This document shows positions 8,481 through 25,150 of a DNA stretch of 64,000 nucleotides, piece after piece. Source of the stretch: Prorocentrum cordatum. Lineage: Eukaryota; Sar; Dinophyceae; Prorocentrales; Prorocentraceae. The stretch's first letter is position 1. Each line of letters begins with the position of its first letter. The DNA lies in assembly GCA_963575745.1 (NCBI GenBank), contig CAUYUJ010017821.1, positions 1-64,000 of the forward strand, written 5' to 3'. The notes beneath the pieces were generated by a model. The model was not told the DNA's origin and searched no databases. It was given only the letters and a program-made list of their open reading frames with translations. Both the position numbers and the translations under genes were made by a program.

Positions 8481-8749
8481 GCTGCGGGCGGCGCGGGCCA
8501 GAAGCATGTATTATGAAGCGGCTATGACGACCGAGGCAAACAGAAACATGCACGCGCTCTCATATTTGCATCACCGTGCGTTTTTATCTAAAAAATCATG
8601 GGTGCGGGGATGCCCGAGCACCCGTATATATATACACATCCAAACATATTTACATATATATATATACATGTCGTCTGGAAGGACGTCGTGTGTACGCAGA
8701 TTTCTCCGATCGTTGTCCCATATGCACAGTGGGCTGATCCACGCAAGTC
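8481..8749. other. AT-rich spacer with (TA)n tracts
   Basis: Two short TA/TATATA runs (about 8627-8638 and 8655-8668). A minus-strand frame continues through them from the KptA-like fragment, but that part has no recognisable similarity. Confidence 0.6.
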
Positions 8750-9028
8750 CCACTCGGTCGTATCTACATTGATTCGTGGTCGGCAAGATGCCCATGAACT
8801 GGACGATGCGGGTCGGCGGAATTCTACTGCCCCGACCTGCCGTCATAACAATATCATTTGCTGAGCGCCAGATTGCCATATTGTCGCGAAGTCGGTTTTT
8901 CAAACTTAGCATAATCAATACTATCTCCAAGTAGAAATGGACATCCGTGGACAAACTGTCTGCCCCTTTTATAACCAGTGTCATCAGCGCGGCATGACAG
9001 CCCAGCATGAAGTATGTTCGGGATATTA
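8750..9028 (-). pseudogene. Tpt1/KptA-like C-lobe, left part of the older element, cut by the 16-kb insertion
   Basis: Read on the minus strand from 9028 downward, one frame gives NIPNILHAGLSC and KRGRQFVHGCPFLLGD. After a frameshift another gives AIWRSANDIVMT and RIPPTRIVQFMGI. These match, in order, KGILDNGLSC, GGRQFVHGCPYLPGD, SLWRSANDIVMT and RIPPDHILQIVSI in the young copy. The fragment ends exactly at the LTR boundary. Its missing upstream codons lie at the other end of the insertion, at 25148-25122, where the frame reads FIHDTKWAN. So this is the disrupted half of an older copy of the same polyprotein. Confidence 0.85.
9025..9028. other. Target-site duplication (ATTA), left
   Basis: ATTA lies directly outside the left LTR and again at 25122-25125 outside the right LTR. 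Removing the element and one ATTA restores a continuous Tpt1-like reading across the site, which supports a true 4-bp duplication. Confidence 0.8.
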
Positions 9029-9313
9029 AGTCGAAAACGCACTGGTAAGCCAAGATATATGTTCCGCCTTAGGCGCTCCCATATCCCAGGCTTTGGCTCA
9101 TACCGCATGAGCAAGAGAGCAAGATGAAGCATGGGATCTGGAGTAAAGGATAGAAGGGGCATCTTCAATAGAAAGGTCTTTTCCGATTTCAGATGCGAGT
9201 AGTGCGCCTCGGTGAGGCACAATCACATGTTCGGCCGGGCCCGGCTTGAGCCAGGCACGGCAGCGGTGCATGCTCGATATACATCTCGCCTTTAACCCTC
9301 TCCGTTTAAAGTT
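9029..9313 (-). repeat. 3' LTR of the copia element
   Basis: It matches 24837-25121 with a constant offset of 15,808 and no indel. The two differences are T9188 against C24996 and A9225 against G25033. Just inside it, at 9314-9331, the sense strand is pyrimidine-rich (CTCGTCTCCTCCCCCTCC), where a purine tract is normally expected. Confidence 0.93.
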
Positions 9314-9416
9314 GGAGGGGGAGGAGACGAGCAAGCACCGCATTTCTTCATTACGCGGAAAAACAGTGCTAGGCAACAGCGGCTGCCTACAAGGCAAGGG
9401 CGCGCGAGTAGCCTCG

Positions 9417-10241
9417 CTACCGGCGAGTTTCCTCGCTACTAGAGCGCACCTGCATGCGGGTTTCCCCGCCAGCTCGGGAGGCAGGGCCGTCCTGAGACGA
9501 CCTGCCCGCCCTATACGGAGTATGTTTCTTCAGCTCGTGCTTGAAGGATTGCTGACCGGCCATTACCTGTAGGAGCAACGCGCGGTCAATACTACCTTTG
9601 GTATGACCATCGGCAGTCATATCCCGCGTGTCACACCATTGGACGCTTTCAACGATTCCGCGCTCCATCATCTGGCGGATCCAGCTAATGTGCCCAAGCA
9701 GAGTGCATTCTGTGGGCTTCTTCAGATCTTTGCTGGACAAAGACTTGAAGACAGACTCGGCATCAATAGTCAGAGCGACTTTGATACATAGACCACCCAG
9801 TTCCAATATGTTCTTCAACTGTGCGGGGGTCAATGGTCCCGAGTGTAGCTCGTGGAGCGTTACAATGGTCGGGTAGCAGTCTTCCAAGTTGTGGGCTGCT
9901 GCCAGTGTTTCCGCAGAGTAGCTCGAACGCACCTGCAGTCGATGAGACTTGCAGTATGCGCCCACCAGGTGCACGACGGGTTTCCCCGCTTGCGTGTGGC
10001 CACGCCTCAGCAGGTTGGCCCCGCGGATACCGTAGCCTTTGACTTCGTCGTCTTCATCTCCGTTGAGACGACGATAGCCAGAATCGCTATGCAGGTCGAC
10101 CTCTCCTGTTGGAGTCATAGCTTGATACACGATATTCTTCGGACCTGCCTGCAATTTCCTGGTAACCGCGTTCAGTCGTCGTACCTGGATGTTGTCGGTT
10201 CCTGGATACGTTGCAGTGAGACAACATAGACCATCAGCCAT
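9417..10241 (-). CDS. RNase H domain of the copia polyprotein
   Basis: The frame starts before 10241 and ends at 9417. It has the order of a Ty1/copia RNase H: IQVRRLNAVTRKLQ, then DLHSDSGYRR (first Asp), then LQVRSSYSAETLAAAH (the S-S-x-x-A-E block), then ALTIDAESVFKSLSS and a terminal VQWCDTRDMTADGHTKG, matching the usual W-x-x-T-x-x-M-x-A-D-x-L-T-K end. It is shifted relative to the preceding reverse transcriptase frame (10172-14866). The switch lies near 10190-10205, where LQRIQEPT in one frame is continued by NIQVRRLN in the other. A single-base indel in this copy explains it best. RNase H removes the RNA template during reverse transcription. Confidence 0.85.
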   Translation of the reverse strand: MADGLCCLTATYPGTDNIQVRRLNAVTRKLQAGPKNIVYQAMTPTGEVDLHSDSGYRRLNGDEDDEVKGYGIRGANLLRRGHTQAGKPVVHLVGAYCKSHRLQVRSSYSAETLAAAHNLEDCYPTIVTLHELHSGPLTPAQLKNILELGGLCIKVALTIDAESVFKSLSSKDLKKPTECTLLGHISWIRQMMERGIVESVQWCDTRDMTADGHTKGSIDRALLLQVMAGQQSFKHELKKHTPYRAGRSSQDGPASRAGGETRMQVRSSSEETRR

Positions 10242-13200
10242 ACCTGCGTGATCAACGCATAGGCTAGAGCGCCACGAAGACTGACGAACATATCAGAAAT
10301 CGTCTTTGTCGCTTTGCTCTCAGGATCAGCGCCTGTGAGTTCTGGATGTGTGATAGGACGAAGTTGTTTGATGTATTCGTCCTGATCAAGAGTGACGCTC
10401 CCATCATCGGTCTTGTTGTACCGAACGGCACAGTTTGTGTATGTGTGCTTGTTCAGTTTGCACTTTCCAAACGTATCTTCAACACATTTGACGTACTTGT
10501 CAATAGAATCTTCCTTCTCAGTCATATTGATGTCATCAGCGTGTTTGGCTGTCAAGAGGTTTGAACTCATCTCGAACTCTTCATCGTATGAAGTAGGCTG
10601 TAGTCCAAAGCTCCTAGTGATGGACCTGAGCTTCAACGAGAATGCCCTGGGAGCATCCATCGTGCCAGTCCCCGGCTTCAGGCGCCGAAGACAATGCTTT
10701 GATTCGTCATGTGACTCAAAGCCTGGCAATGTGCGAAGGACAGCTGCTGACCCAGGAGGTAGTGTGAAGCACACCACACGCTCTTTCTCGCCCGTTGCCG
10801 CGGCGAGCTCGCTATAGGTCAGTCCCTTCAAGAAAGCCATGTTGATGTCCAGGGAAGCGATGATCCAAGCTTTGTTGCATGCAGCAGAACTTGCGAGCAG
10901 TCTCTGGTTTGACCTCCTTGCCGTGCCAGAGAAGGTTTCGACATCAAAGGCTTCAATGTCCATGAAGCCACGGAGTACCAAGCGTAACCTGATCGTCCGT
11001 TCCATTTCGCCCTTCTCGTTCTTGACAAACTTCCATTTGTATACATAGCGTGAAGTCATGATGTTCGACGCTTTGCTCAAGTCAGTCATCTGGAAGCATT
11101 TGTTGTCAAGCCAAGTCTTCAATTCTGTGTGAAGGGCTTTGGAAACTTTGACCGGATTCGCTTGAATGTCGGCCTTCGTGAGTAGATCGTCTTCCTTGAC
11201 GACCGCGGCACGTTTGGAGGCAGCACTAACATATACTCGCATAGTTGTGACGCTGCTGTCATCCAACAATCGGCGTTGCTGCTCGGACAGGACGACTTTG
11301 GACATGTCTGCTGTGAAGCAAAGCTCGATGTACTTCCCGTGCTCGTCGGAATCCAGATCATATTGGCTGTCCGGATCCGTGGAGCACAAAGGAACGTAGT
11401 AAGAAGTGTCCATGTCGTATCCTGGCGGGTGACCCCGCACCGGCAAGTGGCCTTGCACATCTTCACAGGTCGTAGAGACCAACGCGCACTGTGAGTCTGT
11501 CATGTATGTCGGAACTGTATGCATGACTTCTTCTGTGTCAGCTTCAAGGAGTGTTCTGTCACCCATCAGTTCAGCATACCACGACTTCAAGACAAAGACA
11601 TCCAGATCTTCTTCTGTTTCCTCTATGATGGTCGGGAGCCGACCATCATTCTCCGCAGGAGGCTGCTCAGGAGCAGCTGCTGGAGGTGGCTCGCTTGGTG
11701 GTGGACCATCAGCGAGTTCCTCAAACTTAGTGAGGTCTCGGTCGAATCCAGCAGGCGGCTTCTTGGATTTAAGACACTGGATGATGCGTGAATGTGTAGA
11801 TCCTGTGATGTCGTAGATGTTCAAGGCAGTGCCATCAGCTTCATAATAATGAAAGCCAGGGGTCACATCGTTATCATAGTGCACTAGTGTACAGCTGTCT
11901 GCATAGGGTGCAGCAGGCAACTTAGTCAGGCTTTTAGCAAGTCGTACAGCAACCACGTTTTCAATGCGAAAATAGTTGCGAATGAGATACTGAAGAGCCA
12001 AGTGCACCTTAGGCGAAAGCCGGCTCGCAGCAGTCATCTGCAGCCGGCCCTGTTTCGCTGGTAGGTATCCGAAAGTCATGGCGGGTTTCCCCGCTGGCAG
12101 ACCGGCAATAAAGGCCAATGCTGTCCGAAGGGCCGTATTGTCCGATCCTATCTCGCGGACCATCAGTGCTTCGATGTACAGCGTATGTCGTGTGTCAGGA
12201 TACTGTACTCGCACTTCGCGACTGCCGACCTTCACGATGACCTGACCTCGGTCAGGTTCGTTGCGGATGACCGGGTATGGACCACTCCATCCACCCCAGT
12301 CGTCTTTCGTGGTGGTCGGGCGATGATAGTCCACGAGATCTCCCTCTTTGTAGTGAAATTCACCCGTAGCAGTAGTCTTCGTACGGAGAGCCCTGTTCGT
12401 CTTGGCAACCGCAGTGGCCTGCGTGATTGCCTCCAGACTAACCCTCCTGATTGTCTCTTCCCTTGAGTGATCTGATGATTCAGCGGACTGATCATGATCC
12501 AGGACAGGGAAATCGGGAAGCATAGCTGGTTGTCTGCCATACAGCGCACTATACGGAGACACTTCGTTGTAGAAGGTAAATGCGTTGCTGGCAAACAAGG
12601 CCTCATGTAAAAAACGAATGAAATTCAGAGGAATATTCAATCTATTCAATTCTTCTCCCATCACGTGTATGAGGTGTCGCAGGATGCCGTTCCTAGCTTC
12701 GATAGTCGTGGCGTGTTGGCCACGCGCTCGGATACGAAGCTCTGTTCCCTTGGATTTAAGGATGGCCTTTGCTGTATCGTTATTCAGTGCTCCTTCCCCA
12801 TCGGAGTATAAGATCTTAGCAGGGCCATGTTGCATCCAAGTTGTGTGATAGGCATCGAGAACAGCGTGCATAGTCTTATCAGGAATCTCTGTGCCAGCTG
12901 CCCAGCGAATACAACGGTCGATGATGTGAAAAACAATATGTTCCTGTTTGTAAAAGAAAAGATCACATTCGACTTCCTCGTTGAAACGTCCTGGCAGTGA
13001 CACAGAAGGCATCACCGTGTTGCCTGGTTTGTCCCAGGCACGACATTCTCTACGCGAGTCGCAAATGCCTTTGATCAGACTCAAACGGGTTTCACCCAGA
13101 CCAACCTTAGCTAGAATCATCCGCATCTTTGGTTCCTTAGCATGAAACCATCTCAAGTGAAGCTTGCGGAGTTCTCGCTGCACTACAGCTGGGTCAAAGC

Positions 13201-14866
13201 TTCGCAGGTTTTGAAGGCTGAGCTGAACGTCGAAGCGAGTCCAATCAGGGAGCCTTGGCCTTGGCCTCGGCTCTGCGTGAGGCTGCGGCGGCGGTGGAGG
13301 ATCACCTCCCTCCATGCGTCCGCGCCTTGCTGCCACTTGCGGCAGTCTGCGGTGATCGTCAGAGCTGCCAGCGCCAGTGGTGTTACCATGAGCCCCCTCG
13401 GCCCTGGCGATGTCATGGCTGCTGGCGCCTGCGGCTGGATCGCCCTCACCGGGCCGTGGCGGCCTAGGCGCGCGTATGCGCGCTTTCGCGGCCGGCGCCG
13501 CTTTTGCGGCTGGCGCCGCTTTTGCGGCTGGAGCCGCTTCCGCGGCTGGCGCCGCAGGAGCGGCTTGCCCCGCTGGGCGCGGCTGACCAAAGTTATCTGG
13601 CAGCTTCCATTTTTCGGCGAATCTGCATTGGCCAGATATCTTGGTATGGTGAGGATTGCTCTTCTGATATTCCTTCTTACAGCTTGGACAGTCCCAATAG
13701 TATGGTTCAACATCATACCATCGACACATCTTCGGATCCCTGCTGTGCCTTGGTGATTGTTTGTAGTTGTTGTCTACGCAGCCAGGGCACCCAAGACCGC
13801 CAAGTGGTGGTCGCCGGATTTCTCCGTTTGGGTGTCTCTGGATTGTTGGGTCGTCCAAGTCGTAGCCAGCACTGTTTGTTACGAACGCGTAACTGCGTTC
13901 GCGATTCGCGAATGGATCGCGACCGTAAGCGCACAGATCTTTGGCGATTTGCACCGCATCAACGATCAGTGACTGCATTCTGTATGTATACTGTGCCGCC
14001 CTTGCTAGTTCTTTGTTGCAAGCATTGGCGTGCACATGATTACCTGGACAACGCTTGCCTCTGAAAGGTGCCAACGACTCTTCTTTGTTTGCCATCATCT
14101 GTGTTGGCTTGCGAATGTATTGTCCAAACGAATATTTGAGACCAGTCGTGCATTGGTCAATAATCGTTTGGCAAGTGACCTTGCGTTGTGCCAGTTCCTT
14201 CCATGGCTGGATCTCATCCACCCACGTGCCCATTGGTCGTTCCCTGAGAAAGAAACGTCTTAGGTCGTCTTGTAATAGAGCGACTGCTCCACAGAACGTG
14301 ATGTGAGGTAGGTCCTCTTTGTGGTGTTTAAGCCACGTATCATAATTGACCTGTGCGTTGAAGTATGAAGGAAGTCCAGTAGTTCTGCAGCTTGGCTGCA
14401 AAATCGTGATCTTGACAAAGCAAGTCTTGAGGTAGTGAAGGACTGCTCTTTGTACTTCCGAGTTTCCAAGGTCAACCATAGATATCTTATCAAGGTTCCC
14501 GCCCGACGAGAGCCCCCTCTTGAAGGCTAATATGGATATACCACCCTTGCCCCCACATAATTCAAGCATGTCCACTTGATTGTTTCTGCCGTAGCATAGT
14601 GACTGGACCATCGAGAAGACATCAGCATGTGAGTCAGCGGGTTGCCCCGCCGGTAACATCATGAAGATGTCCTCTGATTCGCTGTCCGAGTCCGAGTCAT
14701 CAAGAGGAACGTCGTTGAAATATGTGGAGCAGTCAAGCCCTTTGAGGTCCTCTCCACAGTCGTCGTTACCGTCTTCCACTTTCTTCGGGATTTTCTTCGG
14801 TTTGATGCCAGCCTCTTTGTCAGCTTTCTGCTTTTCTTTCTGTTTTATCCTGGCATCAGTGGGCAA
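10172..14866 (-). CDS. Pol: MTase-like region, Zn-binding motif, integrase core and reverse transcriptase
   Basis: A frame of 1,564 codons. Residues about 98-220 read as a Rossmann MTase-like fold: DMLELCGGKGG, then MVDLGN, then ILQPSCRTTG and ERPMGTW. Residues 360-415 hold spaced Cys/His pairs (CPGC, CPSC, HHT..C). Integrase follows: an H570-H575-C602-C608 motif, then catalytic D635, D689 and E723 (ECDLFFY, YSDGEGAL, TIEARNG). An 18-bp repeat encodes AAPAAK at 440-462. The RVT_2-type polymerase has motif A LDINMAFLKG (D1340) and the catalytic pair in KHADDINMT (D1444, D1445), so the usual Y-V-D-D reads H-A-D-D. The frame differs from that of the segments before (14856-16016) and after (RNase H). 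Integrase inserts the cDNA, and the polymerase copies the RNA. Confidence 0.88.
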   Translation of the reverse strand: MPTDARIKQKEKQKADKEAGIKPKKIPKKVEDGNDDCGEDLKGLDCSTYFNDVPLDDSDSDSESEDIFMMLPAGQPADSHADVFSMVQSLCYGRNNQVDMLELCGGKGGISILAFKRGLSSGGNLDKISMVDLGNSEVQRAVLHYLKTCFVKITILQPSCRTTGLPSYFNAQVNYDTWLKHHKEDLPHITFCGAVALLQDDLRRFFLRERPMGTWVDEIQPWKELAQRKVTCQTIIDQCTTGLKYSFGQYIRKPTQMMANKEESLAPFRGKRCPGNHVHANACNKELARAAQYTYRMQSLIVDAVQIAKDLCAYGRDPFANRERSYAFVTNSAGYDLDDPTIQRHPNGEIRRPPLGGLGCPGCVDNNYKQSPRHSRDPKMCRWYDVEPYYWDCPSCKKEYQKSNPHHTKISGQCRFAEKWKLPDNFGQPRPAGQAAPAAPAAEAAPAAKAAPAAKAAPAAKARIRAPRPPRPGEGDPAAGASSHDIARAEGAHGNTTGAGSSDDHRRLPQVAARRGRMEGGDPPPPPQPHAEPRPRPRLPDWTRFDVQLSLQNLRSFDPAVVQRELRKLHLRWFHAKEPKMRMILAKVGLGETRLSLIKGICDSRRECRAWDKPGNTVMPSVSLPGRFNEEVECDLFFYKQEHIVFHIIDRCIRWAAGTEIPDKTMHAVLDAYHTTWMQHGPAKILYSDGEGALNNDTAKAILKSKGTELRIRARGQHATTIEARNGILRHLIHVMGEELNRLNIPLNFIRFLHEALFASNAFTFYNEVSPYSALYGRQPAMLPDFPVLDHDQSAESSDHSREETIRRVSLEAITQATAVAKTNRALRTKTTATGEFHYKEGDLVDYHRPTTTKDDWGGWSGPYPVIRNEPDRGQVIVKVGSREVRVQYPDTRHTLYIEALMVREIGSDNTALRTALAFIAGLPAGKPAMTFGYLPAKQGRLQMTAASRLSPKVHLALQYLIRNYFRIENVVAVRLAKSLTKLPAAPYADSCTLVHYDNDVTPGFHYYEADGTALNIYDITGSTHSRIIQCLKSKKPPAGFDRDLTKFEELADGPPPSEPPPAAAPEQPPAENDGRLPTIIEETEEDLDVFVLKSWYAELMGDRTLLEADTEEVMHTVPTYMTDSQCALVSTTCEDVQGHLPVRGHPPGYDMDTSYYVPLCSTDPDSQYDLDSDEHGKYIELCFTADMSKVVLSEQQRRLLDDSSVTTMRVYVSAASKRAAVVKEDDLLTKADIQANPVKVSKALHTELKTWLDNKCFQMTDLSKASNIMTSRYVYKWKFVKNEKGEMERTIRLRLVLRGFMDIEAFDVETFSGTARRSNQRLLASSAACNKAWIIASLDINMAFLKGLTYSELAAATGEKERVVCFTLPPGSAAVLRTLPGFESHDESKHCLRRLKPGTGTMDAPRAFSLKLRSITRSFGLQPTSYDEEFEMSSNLLTAKHADDINMTEKEDSIDKYVKCVEDTFGKCKLNKHTYTNCAVRYNKTDDGSVTLDQDEYIKQLRPITHPELTGADPESKATKTISDMFVSLRGALAYALITQVWLMVYVVSLQRIQEPTTSRYDD
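13489..13580. repeat. 18-bp in-frame repeat GCGGCTGGCGCCGCTTTT
   Basis: About five tandem 18-bp units within the pol frame, encoding alanine-rich AAPAAK blocks. Each unit is the same GC palindrome type as the dispersed GCGGGTGGCCCCGC motif. Confidence 0.8.
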
Positions 14867-16016
14867 CGCAGTTTCCGCGGAGAGAGAGATCCGCTGCGGA
14901 AGGATCCGCTGTTAAGTCAGGAAATGGCGGAATTTCAGGAAAGTTGGTGGGTCGCGTTTGGCAGCGCTCAATCGAAGGGGGAGGAGACCGATCGTCATCG
15001 ACGATCGTCGCACGCTTTGGGCGTGGCCTTCGCGACTCACCGTCGCCGTGAAGAACTGGAGCCGGAGGCTCCCAGTATAATCGAGTACTGATGTTTGTAA
15101 CCCCATCAGGTAATGGAGCTCCATAATTGTACCCAGTCGGCTGATCCTGGATTTTGATATCTTGAACGATCTTATTCGTGTCCAGGTCGGTCGTGACTCT
15201 ACGAACAACATGGTCCCATTGAGGGCCCTTTTGTGGACATTGAACGTAGTGTCTTACCTTTTTGTCAACGCGCGTACACACACTGAGGTGTACCGCACTC
15301 CGCTCATTCCTAATCATGTTGGCTTTATTGAGTTGATCAAGGAAGCGTGCAGTGATGATAGCCAAGGTTTTATGCCGGAACTCGGCACGTTGCTGATCTT
15401 GGCCATACCAATCCAAATCATGTTCTTTGTGTGAGCCACAAGTACATCTCCATAAGTTTAGCGGTATATGAGGACAAGATGTAGCAACTTGTATATAGGA
15501 ACCACTGGGATACTTACTGGAGCGATCAAACTTGATACCGAAATGACAAAGTCTCATTCGTATGATGCTTAGCTTCAAATCTTCGATAACATCTTTGATC
15601 GGACCCTGTTTCCAGAAATACCCGGGTGGCCCCAGGATGACAATCTGCATTCTCAGAGCACGCGCTTTGATCAGGAGATTTTGTATACGTTGATAGTGGG
15701 GTCCCGCCCTCTTTCCTGGAGTACGAACGTACCAATCAGAGGGTGTGGCCACCCACAACATATTATAGTCTCCTGCCAACAGGTTTCCCAAATACTGTGT
15801 TCCAGTTGAAGTCATTACCTCGTTATGGGTAATCCGGTCACATATATAGCCACGGGTTCGGAGTTCAGCGCAAGCTGTGCGAATATCTTCGATAACGAGA
15901 CATTTTGAATGATATTTTTCCTCTCGGGCCTCAGCGCGGCCAACGTATGTAGCGAGGAGGCCGGTATTCGGCTTCTCTTCGCAAGCGAGCGCCGCCGGCG
16001 CGCCCGCCTGCCCCCG
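14856..16016 (-). CDS. Pol segment after the second TGA, unknown/MTase-like
   Basis: The frame of the protease segment continues past the TGA at 16017-16019. Its first ATG is at 15815, but it is open from 16016. It reads YVGRAEAREEKYHSKCLVIE, then TPSDWYVRTPGKRAG, ILGPPGYFWKQGP, IIRMRLCHFGIKF and LWRCTCGSHKEHDLDWYG. The GPPG segment followed by R-x-x-x-C-x-x-G resembles the way DNA-methyltransferase folds run, and similar blocks are known to me from dinoflagellate copia proteins, but no catalytic residue can be assigned. It ends 11 bases inside the next frame. Confidence 0.55.
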   Translation of the reverse strand, partial: RGQAGAPAALACEEKPNTGLLATYVGRAEAREEKYHSKCLVIEDIRTACAELRTRGYICDRITHNEVMTSTGTQYLGNLLAGDYNMLWVATPSDWYVRTPGKRAGPHYQRIQNLLIKARALRMQIVILGPPGYFWKQGPIKDVIEDLKLSIIRMRLCHFGIKFDRSSKYPSGSYIQVATSCPHIPLNLWRCTCGSHKEHDLDWYGQDQQRAEFRHKTLAIITARFLDQLNKANMIRNERSAVHLSVCTRVDKKVRHYVQCPQKGPQWDHVVRRVTTDLDTNKIVQDIKIQDQPTGYNYGAPLPDGVTNISTRLYWEPPAPVLHGDGESRRPRPKRATIVDDDRSPPPSIERCQTRPTNFPEIPPFPDLTADPSAADLSLRGNCVAH

Positions 16017-17021
16017 TCAGCGGCTGTCGTGAGACCACGTTGCCGCTTGACTCGAAGGCGTGCGGTTCGCGGATGGCTCCGCAGGAGTCGCTGGTGTGGC
16101 CACGCTCGCAGACAGACTCGGCGGATTGTTCTCAGAGATGTCAAAGTATTCCGTCCGATCCGTAGCGTGACCCACGATCTCCGCTCTCTCACCTCGCTGT
16201 GTACGTGACGACAGCAGGCGGGTTGGCCCCGCAGAGTCCGATGAACCTCCGCCCGTGTAGCTTAGTGGTGGTGGCGGTGACGCGGGTGGCCCCGCTGGAT
16301 CCTCAGGCGTCCATTTACTCACCGCCTCCTGGACTGCCCAGAAGATTTTGGATTTCAGGGCAGCCTTTGCGTTCTCAGGAAGTGGGTGCCAAGTCCCTTC
16401 GGGACCCTGTCGGCCCTCCCACCAGCTGTTCAGCGTCCTGTTCACGATCAAACGGGTCGTGTCCTCCAGGAGCTGCTTGTCGATATACGGCTCGACGATA
16501 TACGTATCGGTCGTGAAGGTCGCGGACTGTCCCGTCGCGGGTGGCCCCGCTGTCGCGTCAGCGGGTGGCCCCGCACTGACGGGGTCCTCTTCGTTCTCCG
16601 TCTCGGTGTAGCCATCTCGACTGCTGCGGATCGTGAAGGTGTTCGTGACCGTGTGGCTTTTGGCCCCATCGTACAGCCCGCAGGGAATCGCAAGATGTCC
16701 CGAGGGAGTCTTCTTCGCCTTCAAGACCTTGGCGCCTCTTCCCAGCTTCAGGGTGTAGTCACCGCTGGGGAAGATGACCTTCTGGTAGCCCGGCTTCAAC
16801 ACGATGATCGTATCACGTGCCTCCATGGCTCCTAGGCCCCAGATAGCCGGGAGATTGGCGCCCGAGCCTTCTGCGATGTTGGAGGCATACTCCTCAATGC
16901 GGGGGCTCGCCTCGTTGGCGTACTGTACCCCGATCTTGAAGTTGCCCATATTCCGACATATCGCAGCGCCCTCCCCAACACCATTGATGTAGAGGGTCTT
17001 GCTCAGGGTGCAGATGGCAGG
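16017..17021 (-). CDS. Protease C-terminal half and linker
   Basis: This is in the same frame as the Tpt1-RING-protease segment, after the TGA at 17022-17024. The frame is open from just after that codon (PAICTLSKTLYINGVG), and its first ATG is at 16949. LPAIWGLGAMEARDTIIVL followed by FPSGDYTLKL and PSGHLAIPC matches the end of retropepsins in dinoflagellate copia elements (P-A-L-L-G-L-x-S-M, then S-G-H-L-x-x-P). The remainder is a Ser/Pro/Ala-rich linker with four AGPPA units. It ends in a second in-frame TGA (CGC TGA CGG). Confidence 0.65.
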   Translation of the reverse strand, partial: PAICTLSKTLYINGVGEGAAICRNMGNFKIGVQYANEASPRIEEYASNIAEGSGANLPAIWGLGAMEARDTIIVLKPGYQKVIFPSGDYTLKLGRGAKVLKAKKTPSGHLAIPCGLYDGAKSHTVTNTFTIRSSRDGYTETENEEDPVSAGPPADATAGPPATGQSATFTTDTYIVEPYIDKQLLEDTTRLIVNRTLNSWWEGRQGPEGTWHPLPENAKAALKSKIFWAVQEAVSKWTPEDPAGPPASPPPPLSYTGGGSSDSAGPTRLLSSRTQRGERAEIVGHATDRTEYFDISENNPPSLSASVATPATPAEPSANRTPSSQAATWSHDSR

Positions 17022-20000
17022 TCAGTGGTTGAACCTGGCCATTATCTCCTGGAAGGTCCGCGCCGTGTTGGATCCAATGATGTTAACATTAGAACCAATG
17101 TCCAGCATGAACGAGATACAGGGCATACCATCTTCATCAGGAAAGAATGTCCCATTGCGCGCTGCAAGAGCGACCTGTACGCCAATGTGGTCGTTGGTGT
17201 GGTACGTGATCTGCGATCCGAGTGTACCCCTCAACAGGCGCTGTTCAAGAACCCATTGACTCATGGTCAGCTCGGTGCACCACATCTGCTCGTACTGACG
17301 GCGCTCCTCCACAGTGATCGGTTCCTGCTGGAGGACCCAATAGTTTGCAGATAGCGTGGACATCCATTCGCCTCCTGGTGGCAGCGTGTCAGTATCGTCA
17401 CGCGCGTAGGTCAGCCCCTCTGTGTCGATCATGAATGTGGAATGGAACTGGGCTGCCTCTGCGCTCTCAGCGCTTGCCCGGCTTCTGGCGCTGACCGGGC
17501 TTGCCACTCGAGAGGTCCTGGTCGATCCAGTTGGCCTCCGAATCCCGCCTCCGCTCCTGCCACTCCGCCTGATGTTAGCCTCCATGTTCCTCAAGAAACC
17601 TGGGTTTGGAGGTCCGTTAGCGGGTGGCCCCGCTTGGGCGGCGGGAGCCGCTTCAGCGGGTGGCCCCGCAGCTGGGGGCTCTTGCGCTCGGAGCGTGGGC
17701 AAGATCGGCATCTGAATGCCTTGTTCTGGCGCTGGCCAGGGGTATGCCTGTGCAGCTGGGGCGCGCGCGGATGGCTCCGCCGATCGTGCGGCCCGAGCCT
17801 CCAGTGCCTCCACTGCTTCGCGTAATCGACGCATTTCTCGGGCATCTGCAACGTGCCTTTCCTGCTGGCGCGCTTGGTCCGACTCAGCATCGCGCTGTCC
17901 AGCATACGGGAAGTGTGCTATCACTATGCCCGGTCCACGGCATACGGCACAGGGGGCCTCATTCGGCGCACCTGGCCGCTGATTGCGGACATGCTGCTGT
18001 GCAACACGGTCCCAGCATATGTCGTGGAAGAAGTGCCCGCACGCCAGTCTCCACACTGTAGTGCCCATCTCGTAGTTGTCCATGCAGATTGGGCACTGAG
18101 TGAAGTTGTAGTCTGAGATGACTGGAGCAGGCAAGTCAGGGCGAGTCCGAGTTTGGCGCTCGAACGTGGTTTCGCCCTCCCGATATGGCGTCGGTGGCGG
18201 CCGTCTGTCTGGCCGTTCAGCAGGTGGCCCCGCAATCATAGGAGTGTTATTCATCTGCGCGTAGTACTCAGGGTACATCGGCGCGTCCATGGCCGGCGCC
18301 TCTGCTGGACCGTGATTGTCCCATCCATATATCGGGTGTGATGCTATTCCTGGAATAAACACCTGTCGATATGGATTCGTGGGATCAGCATTTGGAGCAT
18401 CTTCAGAAGTCCAACTCCAGAGAGGTCGAAAGTCGCCATGGTTTGTAACGTCTATGTTGCGGTTCCGCAACCGGCTGGGCACTCTTTCAGCTTGTTGTTG
18501 CGGAAAAGTAGCCTGTGCTCTTAAGTTAGCTGCCCGACGTTCGTAGTCTGAACCTTGCTGTCCGTCAGCGGGTGGCCCCGCTTGAGCGGGTGGCTCCGCA
18601 GGCGTTCGCTCAGCGGGTGACCCCGCAGCCGCTCCTCCTTCACTACCCCTCGGAGTGCCAAAGGGAGTGGTTGCTTGGAGTGCTGCCGCGAGTGCTGGAT
18701 TTCCGCGAATCGCCTGGAGTCTTTGCCACAAGCTGTTCTCGCTCGTTTCAGACGGCGGAGTCCGGAACGGCGAGCCACCATCGGAGCCGCCCATAGGGAC
18801 AAACCTCGCACCTCCAGCCTGCTGCGGAGGGCGTTGTGGCTGTGGTCCTAGGGCGCCTGGTGGCCCCGCAGGAGTGCGCAGGTTCCTCTGCTGTGCGTCT
18901 TGGATACCTGCATGCACCACCCACGGGTCAGCACGGTATAGCTGATCGGTCAGTCCAGAAACGTCGGCTGGTGACAGGTAGCTGTTGAGGGCCTGGACCC
19001 ATGTCTGCTGGTCCGGCCTCCAAGGAGATGCTACTGCGGCTACTGGCGTGACCACTTGCTGCCATGAACCATCCGAGGTGTCTGCCGCGGGTGTCCCCGC
19101 TCCTGCGGGTGGCCCCGCCTCAGGCATGACCTCGTCTTCCTGGGCATTTATCATGAGGACTGTCTGTGTGAGGTACGGTCGTGGAGCAACATCTTGCTCG
19201 GTCATGGTCAGGTTGAATGGGCGACCGCCCGTCTTAGTCCAGCCCTTTAGGTACATGGCGTGATCTTCCATCACACCCAAAGTTCTGTCACACATTTTAA
19301 GTGGCAAGTAGTCCTCGGAGCAAATCCTGTCCGCGGGTTGGCCCCGCTTCCGCGATTTGTCATAAGCCAGCGGATTGCTCAAGGCTTCACCGACCCGATA
19401 TTTTGCAATGCTCACAATCTGAAGGATATGATCGGGCGGTATGCGGCCATTGTGGCCCCGTGTCATGACGATGTCATTCGCTGACCTCCATAAAGAAAAA
19501 CCGCTGGACAACATCTTGCTGATGCTGCAGAGGATGAGCACCTCAGAGTCAGGACGGATGCCCGACTGAATCCTCGGGTCACCCGGGAGGTAGGGGCAGC
19601 CGTGAACGAACTGGCGCCCCCCCTGCCCCTTAGGGTTGTCCTGTGCGAGGCATGAAAGGCCATTATCAAGGATGCCCTTAACATGCTCCCACTGTGTCCC
19701 GTGGATGAAGTATACTGGGTCATCTGGTTCCTTCATCCATGTCGTGATGGGCTTATAGAGCGACTCTGGGCAGTGGATGCCTGGGCTGCTATGGCCGCTC
19801 GTGGCTCTGATGAAGTATTGTGGCCTGCGTGCCGTTGGTAGGAATCTGGGAGGTAGCTTCATGCTATCCTCGACGCATTTCATCTGGAGCCTGCCCTTCT
19901 GCATGCCATGGTTGTCGATCATCTCGCAGCAGTTCAGCAACACCCAATACACGTATGAACAGTGAGGGTTGCCCTTGATCAGCACATCGTGCATGTCCCG

Positions 20001-21212
20001 GTAGCCTTTCCACTGATTGTTTTCAGTCCAGTTTGTCAGCAAGTCGTCAACAACAACCCAGCCATCGTATGGATCGAAAGTGTCAATATTTTCGAAGTGT
20101 CGGCTGAATCCATCTTTCCAATACGGACTATGGCGTAGGGCTGTAGAGAACCATATTGACACCTTGGCCATTTGCCAATCGCGCGGCAGAGTCGGATCTG
20201 TGTTAAACTTCTCCATGACCTTCATGAGCTCTGCCTTATGCTGCGCGACGCGCAATGGCGGCCTGTCCCGCAACATATTGCCCACGACTTGTTGTTCACG
20301 TTCCCATTCATTACGGCACTCGAAGTTACGACGATCGGGGCAATTGATGACCTCGTATCGATCTGTATCATCTCGAGTGACTCGTGGGTTTATGGTGCGT
20401 CTCGGGCCTTTGTCTTCAATGCCTTGCCAATATTCAATGGCTCCCAGAGGGATGTTCGTGAGAACAGACGACGCTGGTTGCCGACGTGCGGGTGGCCCCG
20501 CTGCTGCAGCTGGCGCCGCTTTAGCGGGTGGCCCCGCAGAGCCTGCGGCTGCCGAGGCAGCTCCAGCGGATGACCCCGCACCAGGGTGCGGGTGACCTTG
20601 GTCAGCCCGCGCATCGTCGGCTAGTTTCTGTCGGTCGTCAAATTCTTTGAGGGCTCTGAAGCGTTCTTCCCTTGAGAGAGTGCCTTCTGCGGGTGTCCCC
20701 GCTGCTGCAGCTGGCGCCGCTTTAGCGGGTGGCCCCGCAGAGCCCTTGTCCTCCTTACCTTTGGCGACTGCCTCTGCCCGCACCGACCTCATCCCAGCCT
20801 CGGGCTTCGGTTGTGCTTTCATTCGTGCCGAGCCTGGTCGTGGTGCAAGGCGCGGCTGATGCAGAGTTGGAGTCCAGTCACCTCGGAAGGCTGCCTTAGG
20901 CTGGTCGCGAACTTCGTCCTTGACATCGCCTTGGGCAGCCGGTGGCATCGGGGTTGATGGTCCAGCAAAAGCCTTCCTCCTCTCCGTCACGGACGGGCCG
21001 GTTGGCTCTCCCTGCTCAGGGTCGTCCTTCTTGGCGATCCCTCTGGCCTTCGCACGCCCCCTGTGTACCTTCGGGGCTCTTGGAAGGGTACCTCTTCGCA
21101 GGAGAAGGTGGAGGCGAGGAGTCGGCTTCAGGTCCTGGAGGTGGTTTGTTGCCCTCGTCTGGTTGTGGACCAGGAGGGTCTTTAGGAGGGCCTTCTGGCT
21201 GGCCGTGATCAT
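17022..21212 (-). CDS. Polyprotein segment: Tpt1/KptA-like RNA 2'-phosphotransferase, RING-H2, aspartic protease
   Basis: 1,396 codons. Residues 1-350 are low-complexity with AGPPA units. Residues about 349-605 match Tpt1/KptA. RING-H2 is at 1040-1091 (C1040, C1043, C1058, H1060, H1063, C1066, C1088, C1091), followed by a helical stretch (REMRRLREAVEALEARAA). FMLDIGSNVNIIG at about 1369-1381 is the retropepsin active-site region, with D1371 and Ile where Thr or Ser is usual. The frame stops at a TGA and then continues open in the same phase. It overlaps the preceding CCHC frame (21016-21212) in another phase. Known RING-H2 proteins act as E3 ubiquitin ligases; its role here is unknown. Neither extra domain is standard in copia elements. 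Confidence 0.88.
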   Translation of the reverse strand: MITASQKALLKTLLVHNQTRATNHLQDLKPTPRLHLLLRRGTLPRAPKVHRGRAKARGIAKKDDPEQGEPTGPSVTERRKAFAGPSTPMPPAAQGDVKDEVRDQPKAAFRGDWTPTLHQPRLAPRPGSARMKAQPKPEAGMRSVRAEAVAKGKEDKGSAGPPAKAAPAAAAGTPAEGTLSREERFRALKEFDDRQKLADDARADQGHPHPGAGSSAGAASAAAGSAGPPAKAAPAAAAGPPARRQPASSVLTNIPLGAIEYWQGIEDKGPRRTINPRVTRDDTDRYEVINCPDRRNFECRNEWEREQQVVGNMLRDRPPLRVAQHKAELMKVMEKFNTDPTLPRDWQMAKVSIWFSTALRHSPYWKDGFSRHFENIDTFDPYDGWVVVDDLLTNWTENNQWKGYRDMHDVLIKGNPHCSYVYWVLLNCCEMIDNHGMQKGRLQMKCVEDSMKLPPRFLPTARRPQYFIRATSGHSSPGIHCPESLYKPITTWMKEPDDPVYFIHGTQWEHVKGILDNGLSCLAQDNPKGQGGRQFVHGCPYLPGDPRIQSGIRPDSEVLILCSISKMLSSGFSLWRSANDIVMTRGHNGRIPPDHILQIVSIAKYRVGEALSNPLAYDKSRKRGQPADRICSEDYLPLKMCDRTLGVMEDHAMYLKGWTKTGGRPFNLTMTEQDVAPRPYLTQTVLMINAQEDEVMPEAGPPAGAGTPAADTSDGSWQQVVTPVAAVASPWRPDQQTWVQALNSYLSPADVSGLTDQLYRADPWVVHAGIQDAQQRNLRTPAGPPGALGPQPQRPPQQAGGARFVPMGGSDGGSPFRTPPSETSENSLWQRLQAIRGNPALAAALQATTPFGTPRGSEGGAAAGSPAERTPAEPPAQAGPPADGQQGSDYERRAANLRAQATFPQQQAERVPSRLRNRNIDVTNHGDFRPLWSWTSEDAPNADPTNPYRQVFIPGIASHPIYGWDNHGPAEAPAMDAPMYPEYYAQMNNTPMIAGPPAERPDRRPPPTPYREGETTFERQTRTRPDLPAPVISDYNFTQCPICMDNYEMGTTVWRLACGHFFHDICWDRVAQQHVRNQRPGAPNEAPCAVCRGPGIVIAHFPYAGQRDAESDQARQQERHVADAREMRRLREAVEALEARAARSAEPSARAPAAQAYPWPAPEQGIQMPILPTLRAQEPPAAGPPAEAAPAAQAGPPANGPPNPGFLRNMEANIRRSGRSGGGIRRPTGSTRTSRVASPVSARSRASAESAEAAQFHSTFMIDTEGLTYARDDTDTLPPGGEWMSTLSANYWVLQQEPITVEERRQYEQMWCTELTMSQWVLEQRLLRGTLGSQITYHTNDHIGVQVALAARNGTFFPDEDGMPCISFMLDIGSNVNIIGSNTARTFQEIMARFNH
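17940..18095 (-). other. RING-H2 domain (C3H2C3)
   Basis: Spacing C-x2-C-x14-C-x-H-x2-H-x2-C-x21-C-x2-C, with a Trp before the third Cys and the sequence ACGHFFHDICWD, fits the classic RING-H2 consensus. It lies between the Tpt1-like domain and the protease in the same open frame. Confidence 0.88.
19398..20168 (-). other. Tpt1/KptA-like domain within the polyprotein
   Basis: The full two-lobe pattern is present. N-lobe: VSIWFSTALRHSPYW (R360, H361), then DPYDGWVVVDDLL. Junction: RPQYFIRATSGHSSPG (R469, equivalent to the I-R-A-x-Q-G-H-S motif). C-lobe: YFIHGTQW (the Y-H-G-T motif), GILDNGLSC, GRQFVHG, SGIRPDSEVLI (R553) and WRSANDIVMT followed by IPPDHIL (the S-x-N-G-V-x-L-T and I-P-P-x-Y-I blocks). 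Tpt1 enzymes remove the 2'-phosphate left at tRNA splice junctions and pass it to NAD+. The Arg-His-Arg-Arg set is retained, so activity is plausible but unproven. Confidence 0.85.
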
Positions 21213-23316
21213 GGGTGATCTGCCTCATCTGGTCGATGTTGGCAGTGCCTTTTATGGCCAGCTTGTATTTGCCATTTTCGTGGCGGTAAAGTACCCTCGT
21301 GCAAAACCACTTCTGTGCCGAGGAGCTGTAGTACCAGCAGGCGCATCCATCAGGGAATGGATTCTCTGAGCCGTCTTCCGCCGCCCATTCTTCATTCAGT
21401 TCGGTCTGGTCAGTGCCGGCGGCGGATCCGGCAGCAGATGCAACAGCCATCCACTCTTCGTCCGCGGACCCAGCGGCTGGCGCCGCGTCTGCGGGTGACC
21501 CCGCTTCTCCGCTGGATTCTGCGGGTGACCCCGCCTCTTTATGGAATCGGCGGTTCCATTCTTTGAGGCGATGGTCTTTGGGAAGCTGTTCCCAATTTTC
21601 CCTGACAGCGTCAGCAACCTCCTCGGTCATAGGGACGCGATCGGCTTCAGTGATGCGCTTTCCTCCTCCAGGGACCTTCTTGTTAGGATCGTGGACGGTG
21701 CCAGCGTCATCTCCATGAGACCAGTTCCAGGGGGTCTCACCGTGATGAGGGCCCCTGGAGGGGCGGTCCATTGGACAGCCGCGCATGTGACCTTTGAAAG
21801 GCTCGCATTGACATACTTGTTTCCTGTATGTCTTGCGGTCGTTGATGATCTCCTGTTTCTTAGCCCTTCGGTCCCAAGCCTCTGGCGTTTTAGTCTTGCC
21901 ACCTTTGGTACGTATTATCATGCCAGATTCGTCCCGTTTGCAGTGCTCCTTGGACCACCAGTGGCGGATCACGTCCATCGGGTAGCCGGGGTACCAATTG
22001 ATGTACCACTCCGGCACGTACTGGGCGGATACACCTACGGAGTGCTCCGTGCTGTACGGGTAGCCAGATGCATCATGTGTAGGGCGTCGTGGAGCTGAAC
22101 GGCTCCTCCTGCGGGTTGGCCCCGCTGACGCACTGCCACGTTCCATGGGCCTTTCATCTTCATGACGGTGCTCTGGGTCTCGGGGTGGCGATGGTCGTCT
22201 GTTCTTCTTTGCATGGCGCCTGTCCTCCGAGTCCTCTGAGCTGTCCTGGACCATGAATACGTGCTGATGCGGGCTTTGAAAGTACCCGATGTCGGTTAGC
22301 TGCTCCATCGTGAGGTCGTTGAGGTCCATCTGGTCGCAGCCCTGCATGAATGCGTCCATAGACCAAGCGGGTGGCCCCGCTGCTGCAGCTGGCGCCGCTT
22401 CGGCGGGTGACCCCGCTAGAGCCTGGAGTGCAGTCAGCATCTGAGGTGCCGACATATCAGGATCCAGGTATGGACGCAACCTTGCGGCCCCTGGGCGCGA
22501 CAGCAGGTCGTTCATGGTTATCTGCTGATATGCTGGCGCACTCAGGAGCTGGATCGCTTCTGCGACCTGCTCTTGGAGCCTGTCCTTATAGTCCTCTTCG
22601 GCCTCTTCAGAGTCAGAATAGGCTGCGGGATGGCCCCGCATTTCATCATCAGCGTCTCCCGCTTCCGAGCTGGCTCGCGAAAGATCAGGCAGCAACGGCA
22701 TGCCAATCACCTGCGGTGCCAGCGCGGCGGCGAGCTCCTCCTCGGTCGCCGGGACGGTCTCAGCTTCGGAGATCTCGTCGTCGGCGGGTGGCCCCGCTGG
22801 AAGACCGAACCAGGCATTGAACGCGACCTCGTCGACTTCGTCCCAGCCGTGGAACTCGTCGAAGAGGGTCACCGCGTACTCTTCCAGGGCTACGGTCACA
22901 TCAGCGTAGCGGGCCATCACGTAGTACGTGGAGGAGCCCGCGGCGGGAGCCGCTTCTGGATTGACGTAAAACTCGTAGTCAATATAGTCTATGTCATCCA
23001 TAAAAGAGTTTTGAGCCAAATGTACGGATCCCTTTCCTTTCCCCTTCGGGCAATGATCGCGCAAATGCTCTGTACTACCGCATGTATGACACTTCATAGT
23101 GTTGCCAGAAGCGTCCCTAGGGTTGCCCCTCCGCCCTTTTCCCTTACCAGAGGTCCGCCTGCGACCCCGACCTTTGCCTCCGATAAGAACTTCTTCAAAA
23201 ACTATATCAGTTAAGGACGTGAGGAAAAGCAGTGATACCCCTACCATGCATACGGCGTCTGCGACCCCCTTTGCCACGACCCTTTCCACAACGTTTGAAA
23301 TGTCGGCGTACTGCAC
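21016..23316 (-). CDS. Gag-pol segment with CCHC zinc knuckle and acidic linker
   Basis: An open frame of 766 codons, +1 relative to Gag, which it overlaps by about 110 bp. Near its start is a Gly/Arg-rich basic stretch (GGKGRGRRRTSGKGKGRRG) and then one zinc knuckle, C76-x2-C79-x4-H84-x4-C89. After this come acidic and AGPPA-rich stretches, then a conserved block (AQYVPEWYINWYPGYPMDVI) that recurs in the older copy. The first codon of the open frame is GTG, and no independent start is evident, so it is probably expressed as a fusion with Gag or was fused before an indel. The knuckle normally binds the element's RNA during packaging. Confidence 0.75.
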   Translation of the reverse strand: MQYADISNVVERVVAKGVADAVCMVGVSLLFLTSLTDIVFEEVLIGGKGRGRRRTSGKGKGRRGNPRDASGNTMKCHTCGSTEHLRDHCPKGKGKGSVHLAQNSFMDDIDYIDYEFYVNPEAAPAAGSSTYYVMARYADVTVALEEYAVTLFDEFHGWDEVDEVAFNAWFGLPAGPPADDEISEAETVPATEEELAAALAPQVIGMPLLPDLSRASSEAGDADDEMRGHPAAYSDSEEAEEDYKDRLQEQVAEAIQLLSAPAYQQITMNDLLSRPGAARLRPYLDPDMSAPQMLTALQALAGSPAEAAPAAAAGPPAWSMDAFMQGCDQMDLNDLTMEQLTDIGYFQSPHQHVFMVQDSSEDSEDRRHAKKNRRPSPPRDPEHRHEDERPMERGSASAGPTRRRSRSAPRRPTHDASGYPYSTEHSVGVSAQYVPEWYINWYPGYPMDVIRHWWSKEHCKRDESGMIIRTKGGKTKTPEAWDRRAKKQEIINDRKTYRKQVCQCEPFKGHMRGCPMDRPSRGPHHGETPWNWSHGDDAGTVHDPNKKVPGGGKRITEADRVPMTEEVADAVRENWEQLPKDHRLKEWNRRFHKEAGSPAESSGEAGSPADAAPAAGSADEEWMAVASAAGSAAGTDQTELNEEWAAEDGSENPFPDGCACWYYSSSAQKWFCTRVLYRHENGKYKLAIKGTANIDQMRQITHDHGQPEGPPKDPPGPQPDEGNKPPPGPEADSSPPPSPAKRYPSKSPEGTQGACEGQRDRQEGRP

Positions 23317-25036
23317 GTCTCACTTTTCTGACCGGTTTCTTCATAAAGCGCCTCCAACGGCGTTTTGATTTGCGATAAGCCATAAAAGCGGCTTCCGCTC
23401 TTTGTTGTTCAGAAAGGTGAGTGTCATCAGCTGGATAGTCATTACCAGCAGAGACTATACCATTGTGATCACCGTCAGATGAGGTATCTGTGTCAGTGCC
23501 AGATTCAAACGGAGAGGGTGGCTGAGACCCTTGAGCGGATGACTCCGCTTGGCCCCAGAGGGTTGTGCCCGAGGGCGGGCTTGCAGTGTAGGCGGCGCCC
23601 GGCGTGTAGTTCGACCAGGCGTTCGCCTCCGCTGCCTCTGCCGATGCCTGGCCGGTCTGCCCTAAGAAGGCAGTGGCCTCGTTGGGCATATCGGCTGGAT
23701 CAGCCCAGGGACTTGGTTCGCCAGGACCAGCGGGTGACCCCGCAGTCGTGGCGTAGACACCTGCGTGTGCGTGGTGCCCTGTGAAGATACCCGCAATGTT
23801 GCCAGGAGAGCGCTCGGCAACATGCCCGTAGTTCCTCATCCTGGTCAGCAGCCTATCATAGTCTGCTTGTGTTCTGGGCATCTGATGATTAAAGGGCTCC
23901 AGCAGGTGTTGGGCTCGTGACGCGCCAACGCCTAACGCTCTGAAAAGGATCAGCGTTAGGATCTGAAAGTTGGGGATGACAAATCCAACAGAGTTAGCCT
24001 CGTCACGGGCCATCTCGAATCGAGCTAACACTGAGTCGATTCGCTCGCCCCTTTCGACGCGAAAGTCGATAAGGGCAGTGCCAGAGTTGAGCTGGCGCTC
24101 ATCTTCCAGATTTTCAAATTTGGTGCTCAGTAGGTACAGTATGTAAGTGACTGCATCCGTTGGCTGTCCGTTGACAGTTACACCATAATTGATGATCTGG
24201 GAGGGGACCTGCATGGCGATACGACGAGCAAGGCCTTGAAGGCCACGTTGTAGTGCTGCAGCTTGCTGAGGTGGCGTCATATTGCCGCTCGTCACGTTTA
24301 TCCATGCATGTACTTCGCGAACGTACTCGCGAAAGGGCGTAGTACCGGCTGGGTCCCATGAAGGGCCGGTAGTACGCGTGTCGTCCATCCCCTGCCGCAT
24401 GTAGCCCACAGCACATCCCATTATCACCCATAGAATGCCGAAGATAGTTATCTTAATCCAGTGCATGTGCATCTCGGCTTCGGTGATTGGTTTAGGCTGC
24501 GGTTTGTCAGGCTCGGGCGTAGCAGCCGTAAGGCGCCTGACCGGCACGGGATGCAGGTGGCCCCGCTGCGGGTAGCCCCGCAGAGTGACCGCGTTCTCGA
24601 TCGAGTTGCCGATTGGCATCTGGTGGAAGTCGGGAGTGAAGTAGCGCAGTGAGGTAGGAGAGAGCGTCTCGAGCTCGCGGGTAGCCCCGCTAGCCCGATC
24701 GCGGACTGGCTCCGCTCCTCGCAGAGCCGGCGCAACATGGTATTCCACCGTAGTAGTAGTCCACCAAGTTGTGCCGTGGATGATGGGTATTAGAGCGAGA
24801 GCCAGCCACACGAGAGTGTAGCCAGCTCCGCTACCAAGTCGAAAACGCACTGGTAAGCCAAGATATATGTTCCGCCTTAGGCGCTCCCATATCCCAGGCT
24901 TTGGCTCATACCGCATGAGCAAGAGAGCAAGATGAAGCATGGGATCTGGAGTAAAGGATAGAAGGGGCATCTTCAATAGAAAGGTCTTTTCCGATCTCAG
25001 ATGCGAGTAGTGCGCCTCGGTGAGGCACAATCGCAT
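23207..25036 (-). CDS. Gag with two predicted membrane segments, starting inside the 5' LTR
   Basis: The first ATG of the frame is at 25036, within the LTR. The reading then crosses the LTR end and the primer binding site. Counted from a GTG at 25066, hydrophobic segments lie at about 83-97 (TLVWLALALIPIIHG) and 203-223 (ITIFGILWVIMGCAVGYM). A capsid-like helical region follows at about 243-470 (MTPPQQAAALQRGLQGLA, then LSTKFENLEDERQLNSG, then RTQADYDRLLTRMRNYG). The end is strongly basic (MKKPVRKVRRAVRRHFKR) and stops at TGA 23207-23209, just before the CCHC frame. The older copy has the same layout at 29512-31252, including both hydrophobic segments. Membrane segments are not usual in copia Gag proteins. 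Confidence 0.8.
   Translation of the reverse strand: MRLCLTEAHYSHLRSEKTFLLKMPLLSFTPDPMLHLALLLMRYEPKPGIWERLRRNIYLGLPVRFRLGSGAGYTLVWLALALIPIIHGTTWWTTTTVEYHVAPALRGAEPVRDRASGATRELETLSPTSLRYFTPDFHQMPIGNSIENAVTLRGYPQRGHLHPVPVRRLTAATPEPDKPQPKPITEAEMHMHWIKITIFGILWVIMGCAVGYMRQGMDDTRTTGPSWDPAGTTPFREYVREVHAWINVTSGNMTPPQQAAALQRGLQGLARRIAMQVPSQIINYGVTVNGQPTDAVTYILYLLSTKFENLEDERQLNSGTALIDFRVERGERIDSVLARFEMARDEANSVGFVIPNFQILTLILFRALGVGASRAQHLLEPFNHQMPRTQADYDRLLTRMRNYGHVAERSPGNIAGIFTGHHAHAGVYATTAGSPAGPGEPSPWADPADMPNEATAFLGQTGQASAEAAEANAWSNYTPGAAYTASPPSGTTLWGQAESSAQGSQPPSPFESGTDTDTSSDGDHNGIVSAGNDYPADDTHLSEQQRAEAAFMAYRKSKRRWRRFMKKPVRKVRRAVRRHFKRCGKGRGKGGRRRRMHGRGITAFPHVLN
24821..24836 (-). promoter_or_regulatory. 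Primer binding site, initiator-Met tRNA type
   Basis: On the sense strand the bases directly after the 5' LTR are TGGTAGCGGAGCTGGC. TGGTAGCrGAG is complementary to the 3' end of eukaryotic initiator Met tRNAs, the usual primer of copia elements. The equivalent 16 bases in the older copy (31091-31106) differ at one site. Confidence 0.8.
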
Positions 25037-25121
25037 GTTCGGCCGGGCCCGGCTTGAGCCAGGCACGGCAGCGGTGCATGCTCGATATACATCTCGCCTT
25101 TAACCCTCTCCGTTTAAAGTT
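24837..25121 (-). repeat. 5' LTR of the copia element
   Basis: 285 bp, 99.3% identical to 9029-9313. It contains the Gag start codon (25034-25036) and about 67 Gag codons before the primer site. No TATA motif is clear. Confidence 0.93.
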
Positions 25122-25125
25122 ATTA
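25122..25125. other. Target-site duplication (ATTA), right
   Basis: Pair of 9025-9028. The older Tpt1-like codons FIHDTKWAN end here on the minus strand. Confidence 0.8.
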
Positions 25126-25150
25126 GCCCATTTGGTATCATGAATAAAAT

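Follow-up and report, generated by a model that had tools for sequence, protein, structure and literature searches.

Can a copia-type retrotransposon carry an RNA 2′-phosphotransferase of its own, and if so, what would the element use it for? The question is raised by contig CAUYUJ010017821.1 of the dinoflagellate Prorocentrum cordatum, of which we analyzed the first 64,000 nucleotides (the window) together with the 4.13-Gb assembly that contains it. The original prediction, made from the letters of the window, had placed a Tpt1/KptA domain inside a copia polyprotein.

A Tpt1/KptA domain in the Gag-side polyprotein

The predicted domain proved to be real. A search against PF01885, named beforehand as one of two tests that could refute the claim, gave a significant match above the curated cut-off (56.7 bits vs 26, E 4.3e-15), and the 13 distinct PDB sequences that the A1 profile retrieved (E up to 0.01) all bear the name 2′-phosphotransferase. 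The scores against the NCBIfam equivalog models are far below their cut-offs. The structure check likewise returned the two-lobe Tpt1 fold in the predicted model, with a winged-helix RNA lobe and an ADP-ribosyltransferase NAD+ lobe, as well as the Arg-His-Arg-Arg set.

The tetrad and Arg557 were mapped by profile alignment to the CthTpt1 chain 6e3a and are numbered in the window frame (Table 1). Arg18, His19, Arg68, and Arg121 are reported to be the essential tetrad of CthTpt1, its NAD+ phosphates being caged by Arg121, Arg139, and Arg140, and the HGT motif contacts NAD+ in known Tpt1 enzymes (PMC6333775). In human TRPT1, alanine at any tetrad position abolishes RNA ADP-ribosylation (PMC6582358), so the retention of all four residues here would point to catalysis. 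This complete domain sits in the Gag-side polyprotein, where it and a RING finger precede the protease part.

Table 1 Features of the young element and of the older element around it in the window.
Feature	Position	Strand	Basis or remark
Copia-type element, LTR to LTR, 16.1 kb	9029..25120	(-)	
5′ LTR, 284 nt, ACTTTAAACGGA...GCGTTTTCGACT	24837..25120	(-)	
3′ LTR, 284 nt	9029..9312	(-)	
Target-site duplication TAATA, 5′ side	25121..25125	(-)	
Target-site duplication TAATA, 3′ side	9024..9028	(-)	
Primer binding site TGGTAGCGGAGC, directly after 5′ LTR	24825..24836	(-)	
Gag open frame, 630 aa; runs out of LTR, through primer site	23210..25099	(-)	Named by position
CCHC zinc knuckle	23044..23094	(-)	Weak Pfam score, E 0.12
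Tpt1/KptA RNA 2′-phosphotransferase domain	19377..20183	(-)	Pfam, profile, fold
Tetrad Arg364 and His365 (LRH; CthTpt1 Arg18, His19)	20130..20135	(-)	
Tetrad Arg473 (IRATSGHS; CthTpt1 Arg68)	19806..19808	(-)	
HGT motif, residues 508-510	19695..19703	(-)	
Tetrad Arg537 (GRQFVHG; CthTpt1 Arg121)	19614..19616	(-)	
Arg557 (SGIRPDSEV; CthTpt1 Arg139, NAD+-phosphate cage)	19554..19556	(-)	Replaced in lineage A
RING-H2 finger, between Tpt1 and protease	17937..18098	(-)	PF13639 E 3.4e-7
Aspartic protease	16830..17102	(-)	Motifs only: DIGS at 17102, AIWGLG at 16847-16830
TGA closing the Gag-Tpt1-RING-protease frame	16017..16019	(-)	
Integrase-like core (CDLFF ... YSDGEG ... IEARNG)	12674..12988	(-)	By motif
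Copia-type reverse transcriptase RVT_2 (PF07727)	10328..11104	(-)	34.6 bits vs cut-off 31.6, E 2e-8
Frame with RNase H-like motifs, after reverse transcriptase	9420..10292	(-)	By motif
Old element, Gag remains	30053-31129	(-)	
Old element, Tpt1, N part	26160-26612	(-)	
Old element, Tpt1, C part	8661-8921	(-)	

Structure of the copia-type element

The copia setting of the domain was also borne out: the LTRs, the target duplication, the tRNA primer site, and the RVT_2 reverse transcriptase support the identification as a copia-type LTR element, and integrase-like motifs precede the reverse transcriptase, at motif level. The two LTRs differ at 2 of 284 positions, and judged from them this copy is young; the 5′ LTR starts at the same base where the local similarity of a second copy begins. 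In the young copy, several parts are broken: Gag, the linker ahead of Tpt1, the protease (interrupted by a TGA at 17022-17024), and the pol frames. The C17535 copy has a single open frame (3158 codons) that runs from within the LTR through the whole protease part.

A Pfam scan of the Gag frame found no domain. The zinc knuckle that follows it scored better in a sister lineage of elements (lineage A, E 0.00098 and 0.0017; the window element belongs to lineage B). The RING finger is also present in lineage A and in P0003, an ENA protein described below. The protease was recognized by DIGS and AIWGLG, which we take, from knowledge of the family, to be aspartic protease motifs.

In both lineages, Tpt1 lies upstream of the closing TGA, which stands between the protease and integrase parts. 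A second lineage-B copy has a TGA at the equivalent position, as do five lineage-A pieces (L009, L014, L016, L017, and L018). A long frame continues beyond the TGA in phase in the window and in four of these pieces (L009, L014, L016, and L018), while in the C17535 copy the long frame that follows has a different phase; programmed readthrough at the closing TGA is possible. In the pol part, Pfam scans gave no match for the integrase-like core or for the RNase H-like frame. At the start of the pol part, a stretch at 14375-14575 (-) reads VDMLELCGGKGG ... ILQPSCRTTG, in which we presume a resemblance to methyltransferase motifs. It had no Pfam match, its PDB matches were weak and lay elsewhere, and a similar stretch occurs in lineage A (L009).

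Copy number and selection

With the window domain as query, at least 131 places were scored (of 4532 candidates), the window included, and they are 91-100% identical over nearly all 300 residues. Only 7 of the 131 have an internal stop, and many, on many contigs, lie in open frames of 2000-3300 codons. A search with PF01885 gave 2877 candidates at first look, of which 150 were scored; neither 2877 nor 4532 is taken here as a number of copies. Among the 150 scored loci, 21 were read: 11 of lineage A (L008-L018), L058-L060, and 7 host-like genes (L001-L007).

That the arrangement is an artefact, with a host Tpt1 fused to a retrotransposon through misassembly or a single chance insertion, is extremely improbable. 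Besides the number, identity, and long frames of the scored places, the same domain order recurs in lineage A and in P0003, which comes from another source, and the host-like Tpt1 genes are only 25-29% identical to the window domain and fall outside the element clade. Nothing was found in favour of a host gene captured in assembly, and this candidate was rejected. Tpt1 carriage is a family trait of these elements.

Selection on the domain was estimated from 30 lineage-B copies, with pN/pS pooled over copy pairs of common ancestry, so that precision is overstated. The core (residues 351-612) gave 0.187 and residues 341-640 gave 0.205, against 0.656 on the linker side (residues 1-340) and 0.373 for residues 641-840. 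Decay after insertion raises pN/pS and does not lower it. The windows end at residue 960, beyond which the other copies are out of frame with the window copy and show many stops. The contrast between core and linker argues that Tpt1 is not a neutral passenger. The lowest 60-codon window (0.061, residues 481-540) contains HGT and the start of GRQFVHG. The motifs IRAT[SN]GHS, GRQFVH, and GIRP were found in 30 of 30 copies and LRHSP in 29; HGT is also in all 30, a count that is partly by construction, as the copies were retrieved by the string HGTQW. Lineage A gave a pN/pS of 0.207 (11 copies chosen by the string HGTRW, where the HGT count is by construction), and the tetrad motifs are kept in all 14 lineage-A copies read. 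The Tpt1 domain is under purifying selection in many copies of two lineages, with its catalytic tetrad.

This pattern bears on the idea that the domain is now an RNA-binding or structural part of Gag with dispensable catalysis. Tpt1 adjoins a nucleocapsid-type zinc knuckle, the RNA lobe of Tpt1 is described as similar to La-type winged helices (PMC6333775) and gave weak La matches here, and an arginine of the NAD+ cage is lost in lineage A. However, pure binding is not expected to retain the catalytic set that both lineages keep, and selection is strongest around HGT and the start of GRQFVHG, which makes this idea quite improbable.

Lineage A and the NAD+ pocket

The equivalent of CthTpt1 Arg139 is Arg557 in the window element and is present in 30 of 30 lineage-B copies. 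It is absent from all 14 lineage-A copies, where it is replaced by Asp (13 copies) or Gly (1 copy). In Runella Tpt1, alanine at this position is reported to cut activity and to let the ADP-ribosylated intermediate accumulate, with no activity at low NAD+ (PMC6333775). By the behaviour of this mutant, lineage A may perform the full reaction poorly, and it offers a natural experiment in how a changed NAD+ pocket behaves.

The domain might then ADP-ribosylate RNA or DNA as an end product, at 5′-phosphate ends or as 2′-phospho-ADP-ribose, protecting or marking element RNA or cDNA while phosphate removal is left incomplete. Human TRPT1 and Streptomyces KptA are reported to modify 5′-phosphorylated RNA ends (PMC6582358). 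The Foldseek list for the domain includes TkoKptA structures with 5′-p-ADPR-DNA, and lineage A is under selection yet lacks the arginine whose loss stalls the Runella enzyme at the ADP-ribosylated intermediate. We nevertheless regard this as unlikely, since lineage B retains the Arg139 equivalent in all 30 copies read, as the full reaction would predict, and the Runella mutant also required high NAD+; moreover, we know of no role of ADP-ribosylated ends in retrotransposition.

Relatives in other genomes

P0003, encoded on a 5.7-kb ENA contig, combines Tpt1, RING, and the DIGS protease motif within one protein and is 45% identical over 88% of the window-domain query; a protein search started from it returned only P0003 itself. 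A profile search gave 37 proteins, 16 of them labelled as from the green alga Pyramimonas sp., with identities of 45-62% across 26-82% of the query. Several of the Pyramimonas-labelled proteins are degenerate; in P0010, for instance, the GR.H motif is without its tetrad Arg, and the counterpart of Arg557 is missing too. IMG/VR was scanned twice, once with the window domain (1 pattern match) and once with an alignment (19 pattern matches), and neither scan gave a confirmed relative.

In a tree of 30 rows, midpoint-rooted and with the host rows on long branches, the element-type Tpt1s (lineages A and B, the ENA protein, Pyramimonas, and the old element of the window) separated from host-like, fungal, and unnamed Tpt1s with 99/98 support. 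Support was 100/99 for lineage B and 100/100 for lineage A. The old element, a decayed relative within which the young one of the window lies, grouped with three Pyramimonas sequences (97/99); its Tpt1 shares 56-73% identity with Pyramimonas P0010 and P0022 but 35-40% with the young lineage. The tree would fit one old capture of Tpt1 followed by spread among algae, and contamination is a possible source of the Pyramimonas-labelled sequences.

The young element is separated from the N part of the old Tpt1 by about 1 kb (25122-26160) that contains CCAAGAGGCCC-like and GTCGTC repeats. Among the host-like genes, one Tpt1 (P0007; L005 and L006 on C13309 and C15736) has a record that also contains PF15247, presumably a histone stem-loop-binding domain, and the same frame occurs at two places in the genome.

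Possible roles of the element Tpt1

Because Tpt1 precedes the TGA at the end of the Gag-protease frame, it would be made in Gag-like amounts and would be carried into the element particle. There it could strip 2′-phosphates from element RNA or packaged tRNA following host RNA damage. Such RNA repair is the role we favour, at a probability of about one half, judging from the sequences. KptA is also found inside the polyproteins of a few positive-strand RNA viruses, where processing of RNA ends has been proposed (PMC9503650). Against repair, we count the loss of the Arg139 equivalent in lineage A, a primer site that fits ordinary tRNA priming, and the lack of a partner ligase in the frames. Pfam scans of the element frames turned up neither a ligase nor a macro or 2H phosphoesterase domain. 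A genome search with PF08302, a ligase domain of fungal type, gave no match, which says little because the control also matched nowhere.

Drosophila copia primes from a cleaved tRNA half, and an element that primed in this way might need Tpt1 to mend the end of that half. The primer site TGGTAGCGGAGC is instead complementary to the 3′-terminal 12 nt of tRNA-Met after addition of CCA. Four tRNA-Met genes of the same genome (ARAGORN, all on contig C19152) end in CACGCTCCGCTA and are presumably of the initiator type, judged from their features. A genome pattern search for the matching tRNA end gave 7 matches against 32 in a backward control, so the pattern alone is no proof, and the assignment rests on the 4 of the 7 that ARAGORN typed as tRNA-Met. 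This 12-nt site also follows an identical TTTCGACT end in the second lineage-B copy and in 6 of 10 lineage-A pieces, and the old element retains 11 of the 12 nucleotides. The site is complementary to the normal 3′ end of tRNA-Met, so priming does not call for a mended tRNA fragment. This weakens the suggestion in the original prediction that Tpt1 repairs the primer tRNA, and half-tRNA primer repair was rejected as far as the primer site goes. Contig C19152 carries a series of tRNA genes (Met, Ser, then Ala, Val, or Leu, with further members variable) at four places (L054-L057).

The domain could instead counter host defence outside the particle, by healing cleaved host tRNAs or by disturbing NAD+/ADP-ribose signalling, and so keep element translation going. 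A role of KptA in tRNA rescue during phage-host conflict has been proposed (PMC9503650). However, the host has Tpt1-like genes of its own (L001, L002), so that an extra general tRNA healer seems redundant, and no partner ligase was seen in the element; we consider this role rather improbable.

Returning to RNA repair, a tentative joint reading, to which we give a real but minor chance, would be that a deep algal copia clade (of dinoflagellates, perhaps also of green algae) packages an NAD+-dependent RNA-phosphate repair module at Gag stoichiometry, that lineage A has become an RNA ADP-ribosyltransferase that tags rather than cleans, and that the RING finger adds a ubiquitin-linked activity.

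Comparison with known systems

The original prediction also knew of no copia element described with Tpt1. This agrees with the literature matches listed, which cover few subscription papers and no preprints: none was seen to report Tpt1/KptA in a retrotransposon or other reverse-transcribing element, and the P. cordatum papers among them did not yield it by term. The family, which is more general than the single window element, is apparently undescribed. Deletion of Tpt1 is reported to show no phenotype in E. coli and mouse, where its substrate is not obvious (PMC6333775). A genetic parasite with its own Tpt1 under selection offers a lead to the natural substrate, an RNA or cDNA that the element must keep usable. 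It would also show that NAD+-dependent RNA repair has been recruited by retroelements, beyond phages and a few RNA viruses, and suggests that these elements are equipped with RNA-repair or RNA-tagging chemistry of their own.

Unlike the cellular enzymes Tpt1, TRPT1, and KptA (PF01885; PDB 7yw2, 7yw3, and 6e3a), the element Tpt1 is a domain of a Gag-protease polyprotein and not a free enzyme. It is longer (about 269 residues vs 206 in 7yw2), forms its own clade, and in lineage A lacks the NAD+-cage Arg. By description, it resembles KptA in the polyproteins of Beihai picorna-like virus and the Botrylloides leachii nidovirus (PMC9503650), where KptA likewise forms part of a polyprotein made by a genetic parasite that passes through RNA; those are, however, positive-strand RNA viruses, and the words "retrotranspos" and "retroelement" are absent from the main text of that paper. 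The DNMT-bearing LINE and DIRS elements of Symbiodinium (PMC5890265) are likewise dinoflagellate retroelements with a host-type nucleic-acid enzyme whose key residues are retained, but they differ in element class, enzyme, and chemistry, and the Copia elements described there are without DNMT.

With Ty1/copia, the element shares LTRs, a 5-bp target duplication, a tRNA-Met primer site, and a copia-type reverse transcriptase; integrase-like motifs lie ahead of the latter. It differs in having Tpt1 and RING ahead of the protease and in its frame of up to 3158 codons before the TGA (in the copy followed). Its LTRs end in AC...CT, not TG...CA, and no purine-rich tract was seen by eye just before the 3′ LTR; where one is expected, at 9313-9340 (-), the sequence reads by eye as the pyrimidine-rich CTCCTCCCCCTCCA.
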